This document shows positions 28,625-32,624 of a DNA stretch of 36,073 nucleotides, in pieces. The position numbers and the translations under genes are program-made. The notes under the pieces are model-generated. The model did no database searches. It was not told the DNA's origin and worked only from the letters and a program-made list of their open reading frames with translations. Numbering within the stretch: position 1 is the first letter of the stretch; every line of letters begins with the position of its first letter. The stretch is from a virus, in the IMG/VR virus record IMGVR_UViG_3300044800_000006, positions 1 to 36,073 of that record. One strand, written 5' to 3'.

Positions 28625-30802
28625 CTATTCCAAAAGGTCAATATTAAAGCGTTTTCTAATTGGCCGTCTGCCAAACCCTGTCACAGGATCGCCACCGGTG
28701 TAGCCGATGATGGGCTGATGCTTCTTAATCTGGCTGTTTAAATAATTAAACATAAAGTAACGTAATGAATCGCAGTTAGATACTAAAAGACCATTAGCGA
28801 AGTAACAGCCATTTTGAGTGCTTAGGTTATAAACTATTCTTTTTCGTAGCGGTTGCGGGTTTAACTTGCTTGATGCCCCTTCTTCTACGGAGGGCATACA
28901 TTTTGCAATTAAGTCCGCAAAACTTCGATCGTGTTGGGAACGGGGTTTTATATCCAATCCCGCAACTTTGACAGTGTTTAGAATACATTTTCCTATTATC
29001 CCAGCATTTTCTACCATTTCTGATATGCCATTTTCTACCTTCATCTGATTTATGCCATATTTTTGCTGATTCTCTTGCTTTTTCAAGTCCTGATTGCCAG
29101 TTTTTAGTTGGATGATTCTTTTTATGTTGCTTATTAGTAAGACATTTAAGATTCTTAATATCATTGTTAAGAGTGTCCCCGTCAATGTGATGTATCTCAT
29201 TGCCTTTTGGAATATCCCCGTTGATACTTTCCCAAATTGCTCTGTGGAGTAATTTTGGTTTGCCTCCGAACTTCTTGTAAGCAGACGACATAAAATACCG
29301 CCTAAGTTCCACTTTAGATGAGTTTGGGTATCTCCTATATGGTATTCCTTCAAAGTATATGGTTTCGTGCATAGATATATTGTATCAAAGTATCGCAGAG
29401 TGTCAATAGGCACAAAACCCTTCTGTGTCAGTATTTTATGATTAGGCGTAACGATAGTCCCATAAAAATCTACCACTTCTTTAACGCCAGTTTGAGATAT
29501 ATTATTGATTTTACTCCAACCAAAAGGTGTCCAAACTTTATATGTTTTGTCTAACTTTTCAATATCTACTTGACCCTTATCAGTAAGTATTTTAGTCCCA
29601 GCACCAAAGCAATAGTTATCATTTTCTTTTTTAGGCACTTGCTTGAACTTGCCATCCGTCCCCCTAACTTCTATCCAAACGTACTGTTCTATCTGCTCAA
29701 TAGCTGTTTTAAGATGCTTACTTATAGTCCACTTTGGCTTCTTGTTTATAGGATCGAACATCATATACTCGTGAACTTTAGCTATTCCAAGTTCAACGTC
29801 TTTGTTTGTTTCTAATATAGGCCAAGAAAGGCGTTTAAGCTCTTCAATCAAGTCAGGCCTGGCGGGGTCGGGGAAGATACCTTGAATCACAAGTCCGTTA
29901 GTTTGTGCTTTCATCAACTCGTCTATCTCGTCAATGCCTTTTTGTGATACATCAAAGCCATCAAAGGTATAAACTCCGTTAGAAGTCACCTCGTGCCACA
30001 GTACAGCCGTTTCGTGGCCAACAGCAAAGCCAAAGTCTATTGAACCAAAGATAGTCCCCATAGGTTCGCGCCTATCAACGATATGTATATCCCTTGAAAA
30101 GGTTGGCCAGATAGCACCGGAGCGTTTCATAAACTCGGCCATATACTCTTGTTCAAATCTTTCAGAACTCATTGTAGTTTTAGCTTCGTCTATTTCGGAG
30201 GATTTGATATAAGGATTGTCATATGAGGTAAAGTGAAATGACTTATAATTCTTGTTAGTTTGTTCTTGATTATAAAGATCATAGAACCAGTTATATCCAT
30301 CGGGTGTGGAGATAAACACCACCCAACCTTCTCTATCAGCTAACATTGGTCTAATGACATCCCAAGCGTAGGGGGCGATAAAAGCACTCTCATCCATTAT
30401 CAAGCCATCTAAACCTACTCCTCTTAAACTGTCGGGGTTGTCAGAACCTTTGAGAGCTATTCTTGAGCCGTTGATAAGCTCAACTGATAGTTCTGTTTCG
30501 TTTGTTTTAGATACTAACTCTCTTGGAAGGTATTTAGTTAAAAGCCGCCAAGATATTTCTTTGATCTGGCGATACGTTGGGCCAACGATCCAATAATCAC
30601 CTTGCTTATTTACAGCGTCTTGAATTAACTTGTTGACAGCCCAGACACTCTTTCCAAACCTTCTCCCACATCTAACTACTTTATAGCGATGTGTATCATC
30701 GTGTAAGAGCTTTTGTTTTGGATGCGGCACATACCCGTTGTTAGCGAGTATTTGTTGCAACCTTATCTCTTGTTCACAGGCTAAATTTGTATCCATAATC
30801 AA
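28625..30802 (-). CDS. terL: Terminase large subunit, intein-containing
   Basis: 725 residues if started at TTG 30802 (right after the upstream stop); ATG at 30796 is an alternative two codons later. ATPase: Walker A GRRFGKS at about 46-52, Walker B LIMDES about 134-139, coupling ISTPDG about 164-169. Nuclease: SIDFGFA with D256, DPARPD near 312, and a third motif split by the intein: extein ...NDNY before residue 398 and CDSLRYFMF after 676, which rejoin as NDNYCDSLRY, corresponding to D-x-x-x-D-ALRY of terminases. Unspliced, the nuclease is broken; splicing is expected to be essential. A short remaining C-terminus carries GGDP...RRPIRKRF. Confidence 0.92.
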   Translation of the reverse strand: MIMDTNLACEQEIRLQQILANNGYVPHPKQKLLHDDTHRYKVVRCGRRFGKSVWAVNKLIQDAVNKQGDYWIVGPTYRQIKEISWRLLTKYLPRELVSKTNETELSVELINGSRIALKGSDNPDSLRGVGLDGLIMDESAFIAPYAWDVIRPMLADREGWVVFISTPDGYNWFYDLYNQEQTNKNYKSFHFTSYDNPYIKSSEIDEAKTTMSSERFEQEYMAEFMKRSGAIWPTFSRDIHIVDRREPMGTIFGSIDFGFAVGHETAVLWHEVTSNGVYTFDGFDVSQKGIDEIDELMKAQTNGLVIQGIFPDPARPDLIEELKRLSWPILETNKDVELGIAKVHEYMMFDPINKKPKWTISKHLKTAIEQIEQYVWIEVRGTDGKFKQVPKKENDNYCFGAGTKILTDKGQVDIEKLDKTYKVWTPFGWSKINNISQTGVKEVVDFYGTIVTPNHKILTQKGFVPIDTLRYFDTIYLCTKPYTLKEYHIGDTQTHLKWNLGGILCRLLTRSSEANQNYSTEQFGKVSTGIFQKAMRYITLTGTLLTMILRILNVLLISNIKRIIQLKTGNQDLKKQENQQKYGINQMKVENGISEMVENAGIIGKCILNTVKVAGLDIKPRSQHDRSFADLIAKCMPSVEEGASSKLNPQPLRKRIVYNLSTQNGCYFANGLLVSNCDSLRYFMFNYLNSQIKKHQPIIGYTGGDPVTGFGRRPIRKRFNIDLLE
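28775..29611 (-). other. Intein in TerL (mini-intein splicing domains, 279 aa)
   Basis: Splice junctions by inspection: N-terminal Cys398 begins CFGAGTKIL (block A); block B includes GTIVTPNHKILTQKGF. C-terminal block F is RIVYNLSTQNGCYFANG and block G is LLVSN, with Asn676 and a +1 Cys. Block B has the TxxH pattern. The usual penultimate His before the terminal Asn is replaced (Ser-Asn), a change tolerated in some inteins. Splicing domains occupy about 398-480 and 650-676; between lies a stretch that reads in-frame as a low-quality linker but is a gene in another frame. Confidence 0.9.
28827..29372 (-). CDS. HNH homing endonuclease encoded inside the intein in another frame
   Basis: 181 residues; ATG 29370-29372, -1 frame to TerL. 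HNH core at about 43-85: LHRAIWESINGDIPKG, then EIHHIDGDTLNNDIKNLKCL and NKQHKKNH, the H-N-H/N layout of homing endonucleases. The C-terminal part has CQSCG and FCGLNCK (zinc ribbon) and a basic tail. The stop (28827) falls at the boundary of intein block F. An in-frame TGA at 29385-29387 prevents upstream extension. No SD, so translation may be by internal re-initiation, a -1 frameshift between 29384 and 29372, or a separate transcript. It would cut intein-less terL alleles. Confidence 0.85.
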   Translation of the reverse strand: MHETIYFEGIPYRRYPNSSKVELRRYFMSSAYKKFGGKPKLLHRAIWESINGDIPKGNEIHHIDGDTLNNDIKNLKCLTNKQHKKNHPTKNWQSGLEKARESAKIWHKSDEGRKWHIRNGRKCWDNRKMYSKHCQSCGIGYKTPFPTRSKFCGLNCKMYALRRRRGIKQVKPATATKKNSL

Positions 30803-31750: not shown

Positions 31751-31965
31751 CCCAACCTCCCTTTTATTTGTTCCTTTGTCATCTTATGCACCCAATTAAA
31801 TCTCAATTTCACAATCCATAAGTCAATATAAAGATTGTGCATAATGCTTGAAGGTTTCCCCGTGCGATATTCTCTTGCCATTGGATATGTTGAATATGAT
31901 ACTATTCCTGATACAAGCTCTCCCTCTTGAACTCGATGATATAGTTTTGTCCAAAATACTTTCAT
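31747..31965 (-). CDS. Hypothetical protein, 72 aa
   Basis: ATG 31963-31965, overlapping the methylase stop as ATGA. Contains many aromatic residues (W, Y) with LYHRVQEG and a basic C-terminus. Not recognised. Confidence 0.65.
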   Translation of the reverse strand: MKVFWTKLYHRVQEGELVSGIVSYSTYPMAREYRTGKPSSIMHNLYIDLWIVKLRFNWVHKMTKEQIKGRLG

Positions 31966-32624
31966 TTCAATAACCCCTTTATTTTCTCAACACTTTTCTT
32001 ATGCACCCTTGCTAATACTTCATCTAAAATATGCTTACCTAGTTCTGGGCAAACACAATTTCTTAACAAGGTTCTTTTGTTTGATGCAGTCTCAGGCAGA
32101 AATATTTGATGTCTTTCTTGTAGATGTTCTATCTGTATCCATTCAGGCTTTCCCTTGCATCCTCTGCCACCAAGACGAATATTATCTTTTTCAAATTCTT
32201 TTTGTGGGACCTCTTTGTTTGACCAGAAACAATGTCTTTGCAAAATTTGTGGTTTAATCAATGGCTCATAATATGGTTTTACATTTTCTACCACCCAATC
32301 ACCCTTGAAATAATGCTTTAAAAATAGGATTTCTTCATATAATTTCATGTCTGGATAGATGGCTTTTGCTCCTGAACTCATTGACAGATGTTTTCTTAGC
32401 ATTGAATGACTTGGACAGGGTGGTGAACTCCAAATAAAATCAAACTCTTGATAATGTTCAAGTAAATACTGATGGGCATCTGCGATAATAACTTTATCCT
32501 TAGGGAAAAAATCTTGATAAATCTTGGCAATATCAGGGTCTAACTCTACTGCTGTAATATCGTGGTCATCACCCCACAATTTACGATTGCCACCTATTCC
32601 TGCATAAAGATTAAGTATCTTCAT
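31962..32624 (-). CDS. C5 cytosine DNA methyltransferase, short form
   Basis: 220 residues. Motif I LYAGIGG (6-12), motif IV SSPPCPSHS with catalytic Cys70, motif VI WVVENV (110-115), motif VIII LQRHCFWSN (about 128-136), and a motif X-like segment RNCVCPELGKHI near the end. The target-recognition region is short, and the protein lacks some length of usual M.HhaI-type enzymes (over 300). It would methylate cytosine in the phage genome, protecting it from host restriction. No cognate restriction gene is next to it, so it is an orphan. Overlaps both neighbours. Confidence 0.88.
   Translation of the reverse strand: MKILNLYAGIGGNRKLWGDDHDITAVELDPDIAKIYQDFFPKDKVIIADAHQYLLEHYQEFDFIWSSPPCPSHSMLRKHLSMSSGAKAIYPDMKLYEEILFLKHYFKGDWVVENVKPYYEPLIKPQILQRHCFWSNKEVPQKEFEKDNIRLGGRGCKGKPEWIQIEHLQERHQIFLPETASNKRTLLRNCVCPELGKHILDEVLARVHKKSVEKIKGLLK

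Follow-up and report, generated by a model that had tools for sequence, protein, structure and literature searches.

Can an intein carry its homing endonuclease in a reading frame other than that of its splicing domains, and if so, which of the two frames is under selection and how is the endonuclease made? The question is raised by the gene for the large terminase subunit (terL) within the piece from 28,625 to 30,802 of the window, i.e., the whole analyzed stretch of 36,073 nucleotides, which covers positions 1 to 36,073 of the IMG/VR virus record IMGVR_UViG_3300044800_000006. The original prediction had placed in this gene an intein with a complete, out-of-frame HNH protein.

Organization of the terL locus

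The host gene terL was identified as a minus-strand ORF (28625..30796) of 723 amino acids, stop-free from 30796 to 28625 and matching Terminase_6N (E=1.1e-15) and phrog_2 (E=8e-55). All features described here lie on the minus strand. The predicted intein (28775..29611) corresponds to TerL residues 396-674 and comprises 279 amino acids from Cys1 to the terminal Asn, followed by a +1 Cys. It is flanked by the N-extein (29612-30796), ending in KKENDNY before Cys1 (29611), and the C-extein (28628-28774), beginning with CDSLRY after the Asn (28775). Within the insert, an N-terminal splicing region with blocks A and B (29339..29611; T450 and H453 at 29438-29449) and a C-terminal one with blocks F and G (28775..28852) are separated by a host-frame filler without a conserved fold (28853..29338), i.e., the terL frame across the HNH gene. 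The class 1 intein residues C396, T450/H453, N674, and C675 are all present. Matches to TIGR01445 and PF14623 were weak and located in the N-terminal splicing region, and the window stayed below the curated cut-offs for Hint and intein models. Two ORFs around an endonuclease gene, as in a fractured gene with a split intein, do not occur here, as the host ORF is continuous. An ORF at 31962-32624, on the terL strand and upstream of that gene, matched phage DNA methyltransferases (phrog_363, E=2.5e-13).

Predicted structures point to an intein/Hint fold in the insert. The AlphaFold model of the intein reached a pLDDT of 88-98 at residues 1-80, about 75 at residues 81-90, and 96-97 in the last 20 residues, and the host-frame translation across the HNH gene was modeled with low or mixed confidence, its pLDDT falling below 50 in three stretches. 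The best Foldseek matches of this model were all inteins, with the gp41-1 intein at the top (6qaz, E=9e-5) and Mtu RecA also among them. By its residues, its predicted Hint fold, and its in-frame insertion, the element can be assigned to the class 1 inteins and would be expected to splice.

The nested HNH endonuclease gene (28827..29372) is a complete ORF from ATG to TAA that lies wholly within the terL ORF and encodes 181 amino acids in the -1 frame relative to terL, so that the endonuclease is not the in-frame intein domain of canonical inteins. It matched PF13392 (E=1e-16) and phrog_15471 (E=4e-27), the latter being matched by 54/54 HNH family members as well. H43, H62, N70, H83, and four Cys were invariant in these 54 members. 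The HNH protein was modeled with a pLDDT of 92, and its best, weak Foldseek match was I-HmuI (1u3e, E=0.019). With the HNH_3 motif and the zinc-binding cysteines, it appears to be a homing-type nuclease that would cleave the intein-less allele. These data agree with the original prediction on the intein and its out-of-frame HNH, and also on the position of the HNH stop at block F: the TAA (28827-28829) is made from the block F codons TAT and AAC of VY-N-L. In about half of the family members, the stop is likewise formed across block F host codons, namely Y-D in 13/61, V-E in 12/61, and Y-N in 7/61, which may be why the -1 frame is favored. Counted from the intein start, the HNH domain begins after a median of 90 codons; the stop mostly lies 12-26 codons from the intein end.

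Intein-less relatives and the insertion site

The comparison with related genes lacking the insert, suggested along with the original prediction, supports the placement of the intein. Four terL relatives without insertion (L002, L003, L004, and L005) were uninterrupted at the intein site, one of them being 91% identical to the window over residues 1-395. Their sites read DNF-PD-CLRY, DNY-PD-SLRY, DDF-PD-ELRY, and KDHG-VD-SLRY, compared to DNY/intein/C-DSLRY in the window, and in the three nearest of these relatives a proline codon occupies the position of the +1 cysteine codon of the window. In an alignment of 61 loci, two TerL insertion positions were seen at the conserved nuclease motif, one codon apart (DH/CxDALRY and DHx/CDALRY).

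In three further loci, a free-standing HNH of the same family immediately follows a terL that is intact and intein-less (L041 0-1300, L049 2076-3610, and L024 2100-3474). Two of these, L041 (DHY-CDAARY) and L024 (NHG-CDALRY), have the +1 Cys, which would fit loss of the intein or a site that has become resistant.

Distribution of the nested arrangement

Relatives of the HNH were collected by HNH alignment together with phage and plasmid records, and each was examined for a frame that stays open throughout the HNH. In this first set, the HNH+1 frame, i.e., the host frame, was open in 90/112 loci, and the HNH occupied the host -1 frame in all 90, while the HNH+2 frame was full of stops. A single-sequence search with the window HNH alone yielded one locus. 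The second set was retrieved by the C-terminal splicing block alone and shares some contigs with the first; here, the HNH was found at host -1 in 79/79 loci (75 complete and 4 truncated at the contig start) and in frame in 0. As the loci are related, these counts do not represent independent events.

After deduplication, the same architecture was present in 61 loci, and almost all complete host ORFs had both the N- and the C-terminal splicing region. C1, the block B H, and the terminal N were each conserved in 61/61 loci and the block B T in 60/61, with the +1 position occupied by C in 56 and by S in 5. The Pfam model Intein_splicing matched 53/61 members and TIGR01443 51/61, and terminase families matched most of them. 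Members include Tetrasphaera phage TJE1, Acinetobacter phage Highwayman, Rhodobacteraceae phage LS06, MAGs of Patescibacteria, Acidobacteria, and Bacteroidota, and a Halobacterium plasmid. Judged by their sequences, an out-of-frame HNH is standard among the sampled members of this intein family and not a peculiarity of the window phage.

The plasmid, pGSL19_54.9 of Halobacterium sp. GSL-19 (L118 1460-3772), carries the same nested HNH in a terminase-like Hint protein as well as a portal gene, and resembles a provirus. In addition, phrog_35162 and phrog_30251 matched TerL residues 525-625 and 383-623, i.e., the terL-frame reading of the HNH overlap. The PHROG reference libraries seem to contain such filler translations as proteins already.

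Selection in the two reading frames

For the window alone, the probability of an open host frame was P = 0.02 when synonymous codons were shuffled in the HNH core and P = 0.003 under local codon usage. The chance of (61/64)^183 = 1.5e-4 given earlier was hence too strong for one locus, and it is the family that bears out a non-chance origin. The HNH cores of 88 nested loci contained 0 host-frame stops against 194 (shuffle) or 350 (usage) expected; since nested loci were defined by their open frame, the claim is best put as follows: the majority of HNH relatives sit in a host frame whose openness is not predicted by codon usage. Stops in the terL frame of homologues, which had been named as evidence against the prediction, were absent from these 88 loci. 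Twelve HNH homologues without an open +1 frame served as controls and had 59 stops, compared to 54 (shuffle) or 51 (usage) expected. These are free-standing or other HNHs, three of which are apparently split and one of which (L013) is nested in the other frame. The latter provides a natural control, with the HNH at host +1, an open host frame, and 13 stops in the frame that is usually open. In the second set, 56 distinct HNHs showed 0 host stops against 137 or 244 expected. A sequencing error or a chance open frame is excluded by the recurrence of open frames across loci.

For the window, no close relative with the intein was found, the nearest HNH being about 50% identical, and selection was therefore measured in the family and not on the window copy. 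Across 15 independent pairs, differences in the HNH overlap at HNH codon positions 1, 2, and 3 numbered 430, 354, and 803 and fell mostly on host position 2. This excess at the third HNH position shows that the nuclease is conserved as a protein, in line with the purifying selection looked for in the HNH frame. Outside the overlap, host position 3 varies most, with 386/808 in the N-terminal splicing region, 99/155 in the C-terminal splicing region, and 1676/3283 in the exteins. Along the gene, it is accordingly first the host frame that is constrained, then the HNH frame, and then the host frame again. Among 443 HNH-synonymous changes, 5 create host stops compared to 17.8 expected, the minimum of 300 draws being 8, and these changes are no milder than random on the host residues (BLOSUM test, z = -1.4). 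The host frame in the overlap is a filler that is free of stops and otherwise unconstrained. The earlier proposal that both frames are kept holds in part: it applies to the HNH protein, but all that is preserved of the host frame in the overlap is the absence of stops. A second functional protein in the host-frame overlap was rejected, as the BLOSUM test indicates stop avoidance only and the structure model is poor there.

Expression of the HNH gene

As noted in the original prediction, no Shine-Dalgarno sequence precedes the HNH ATG of the window, and a TGA in the HNH frame (29385-29387) lies 12 nt before the start. The start signal differs between subgroups. Some relatives have a strong Shine-Dalgarno, such as AAGGAGGT in L070, AAGGAG in L029 and L079, and GGAGG in L009 and L074, and these sites fall inside host-frame codons. 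In the window, a promoter-like site (29379..29406, minus strand) ends 6 nt before the HNH ATG and consists of TTGACA (29406-29401), a 16-nt spacer, and TACAAT (29384-29379) with a TG extension. It agrees with 11/12 consensus positions, ranks at the top of five such matches in 2.3 kb, and scores above 97% of host-frame sequences recoded with synonymous codons; the total number of promoter-like matches in these 2.3 kb was not above that of shuffles.

Among 63 deduplicated loci, a strong -10 box at a spacing of 6 was found in 17% compared to a null of 5%, which is the highest of all spacings, with spacing 15 reaching 14% and an AT excess at most spacings. Part of the promoter signal is accounted for by the AT-richness that is generally seen upstream of starts. 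Where the -10 box lies at 6 nt, the -35 box beats the synonymous null in 16/17 loci (P = 3e-4, an optimistic value, as loci and cut-off were chosen after inspecting the same data). Shine-Dalgarno and promoter signals were negatively correlated (Spearman -0.32, P = 0.01), and a Fisher test for exclusivity of Shine-Dalgarno and -10 box was not significant, so that strict exclusivity of the two signals was rejected. From these signals, it is plausible that the window HNH is translated from a leaderless mRNA made by an internal promoter. Leaderless initiation was also proposed for the HNH of the ShiLan domain by its authors (PMC11855218), and the T4 intron endonucleases I-TevI, I-TevII, and I-TevIII have their own internal promoters within the interrupted gene (PMC2988022).

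Two other routes to the HNH protein were weighed against this one. The HNH might have no start of its own and be produced by -1 ribosomal frameshifting from terL, fused to the N-terminal part of the intein, as would suit the -1 position of its frame in all 61 family members and the missing Shine-Dalgarno in the window. However, a stop in the HNH frame precedes the start by 12 nt in the window and by 6-30 nt in many relatives, and no slippery heptamer lies between that stop and the start, so that the slip site once envisaged was not recovered. With a near-invariant HNH start codon, Shine-Dalgarno or promoter-like signals in subsets of the family, and an HNH in L013 that uses +1, we regard frameshifting as very unlikely. 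A more serious candidate keeps the same architecture but has ribosomes on the terL mRNA begin the window HNH by weak internal initiation or by reinitiation, with the promoter-like site being accidental to the PIDTLRYFDTI codons. The hexamers do lie in conserved splicing-region codons, which raises the null (2.7 bits for -10 and 3.3 bits for -35), and both the generality of the AT enrichment and the outcome of the Fisher test are compatible with an accident. The -35 boxes that exceed their synonymous null and the fixed 6-nt spacing, which suits leaderless starts, speak against it, and we lean, not strongly, away from this route and toward the leaderless transcript.

Mobility and history of the element

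HNHs that are 55-74% identical occur within TerL pairs that are only 24-32% identical. The HNH family was found in three states, i.e., free-standing, between apparent split-intein halves, and nested. In L097 (1612-3823), L101 (47-1549), and L102 (1440-3462), TerL is apparently split, the N-terminal part of the intein stops soon after block B, and the HNH has its own ORF; the C-terminal part resumes in L097 and L101. This arrangement could be like that of fractured genes, or it could reflect decay. In L013 (1368-3456; IMGVR_UViG_3300009285_013413), the intein is continuous and the HNH lies in the opposite frame (host +1), which points to a second, independent nesting. In L036 (2170-5338), the same intein with an out-of-frame HNH interrupts a DegT/DnrJ-type aminotransferase gene at EDN/CDALG, a site resembling that in terL, and this insertion is possibly a case of ectopic homing. 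A single origin of nesting was not supported: free-standing and split rows appear among the nested ones (8 label changes, the least forced being 2), in a poorly resolved HNH tree that is compatible with different numbers of origins.

Interpretation of the locus

The arrangement is very probably a mobile intein in the TerL nuclease domain, whose Hint domain is interrupted by a complete -1-frame HNH gene that is expressed separately. Selection conserves the HNH protein and, in the host frame, both splicing regions; the host frame between them only has to stay open for ribosome read-through. The terL mRNA would give a precursor with about 160 filler residues looping out of the Hint domain, which would then excise itself and join NDNY to CDSLRY. 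The HNH would be made separately from an internal start, using a Shine-Dalgarno in some relatives and probably, in the window, a leaderless transcript from a promoter within the splicing-region codons. It may then cut intein-less terL at or near the site, and repair would insert a copy of the whole intein. As nuclease and splicing reside on separate polypeptides, the timing and amount of the nuclease could be uncoupled from terminase production. For the wider picture, the evidence tips modestly toward a widespread class of inteins with an out-of-frame, self-expressed endonuclease, in some lineages by way of a leaderless promoter, and with free-standing, split, and nested HNH forms interconverting at terL.

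The insert could instead be removed from the RNA, as a group I intron with an HNH ORF in which the open terL frame and the splicing blocks are incidental; this HNH type is common in group I introns, and the fold match to I-HmuI is to an intron-encoded enzyme. At gathering thresholds, no Rfam match was obtained in the window or 16 relatives, except for tRNA and int-alpA in L097, and although very divergent introns could escape such a search, the intein residues are invariant in 61/61 loci with the host frame open in all, neither of which an intron needs. Together with the predicted Hint fold, this led us to reject the intron, which we consider extremely unlikely. It is also improbable, if slightly less so than frameshifting, that the element is decayed, with an inert intein and a frame that is open only because the insertion is recent. 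The single copy without a near relative and the weak Hint scores of the window would fit such decay, but all catalytic residues are present, and the HNH is conserved across distant phages with a position-3 bias. In an essential terminase, an intein unable to splice would also be lethal. The mobile intein with its nested, separately expressed HNH gene is hence retained as the preferred reading.

In this reading, a large family from phages of bacteria and an archaeal plasmid, with the nuclease as a gene of its own nested in another frame of the intein, departs from the view of inteins as fusions of splicing and endonuclease domains in one polypeptide. It would show that an endonuclease can invade a mini-intein without in-frame fusion, and suggests a route among the free-standing, split, and nested arrangements. 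The locus also offers a natural case of a long overprinted gene pair that allows selection to be measured separately per frame, and bears on the translation of hidden HNH genes, which was left open for ShiLan. For annotation, it implies that pipelines miss many phage endonucleases and label filler as "TerL".

Comparison with known systems

In canonical large inteins, e.g., PI-SceI, the endonuclease is in frame and part of the same polypeptide as the splicing domain. The window element resembles them in the interruption of the Hint domain at the usual endonuclease site and in its predicted mobility, whereas its endonuclease is encoded in another frame and stays outside the spliced protein. Fractured genes, reportedly described by Dassa et al. 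in 2009 (NAR 37:2560, cited in PMC10448857), involve inteins split into two halves that flank a homing endonuclease gene. The endonuclease is a separate product in both, and gp41-1, the best fold match of the window, is itself a split intein; in the window and the nested family, in contrast, the intein is part of one continuous polypeptide. The mycobacteriophage TerL inteins share the TerL host with the window, but those described are all located in the ATPase domain (PMC5050341), whereas the window intein sits in the nuclease motif. With I-TevI, I-TevII, and I-TevIII, the window HNH shares a promoter of its own inside the interrupted gene, which in the window is a predicted one; these endonucleases belong to group I introns, where the ORF need not share bases with a coding frame.

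The closest parallel is the ShiLan domain, an HNH inserted out of frame into a phage DNA methylase and lacking a splicing domain (Arsenault, Gosselin and Gogarten 2025, PMC11855218). In both, the HNH gene is nested at host -1, a frame that we confirmed for ShiLan, and the host frame is kept open; ShiLan also shares with L018, L022, and L038 a stop codon formed at the terminal Asn codon. The N- and C-terminal splicing models gave no match in ShiLan, and its HNH belongs to another subfamily (22 bits), whereas in the window family a complete intein surrounds the HNH, so that the window does not belong to the ShiLan type, which is defined by the lack of a splicing domain. Unlike ShiLan, the window family resides in the essential terL, and its hosts span bacteria and archaea. 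A search of the literature returned no description of a true intein with an out-of-frame endonuclease, and a preprint on non-canonical intein architecture (10.1101/2025.01.02.630785) may hold one. Out-of-frame HNH insertion is accordingly already known from ShiLan, and its occurrence inside what appears to be a true intein is apparently new.
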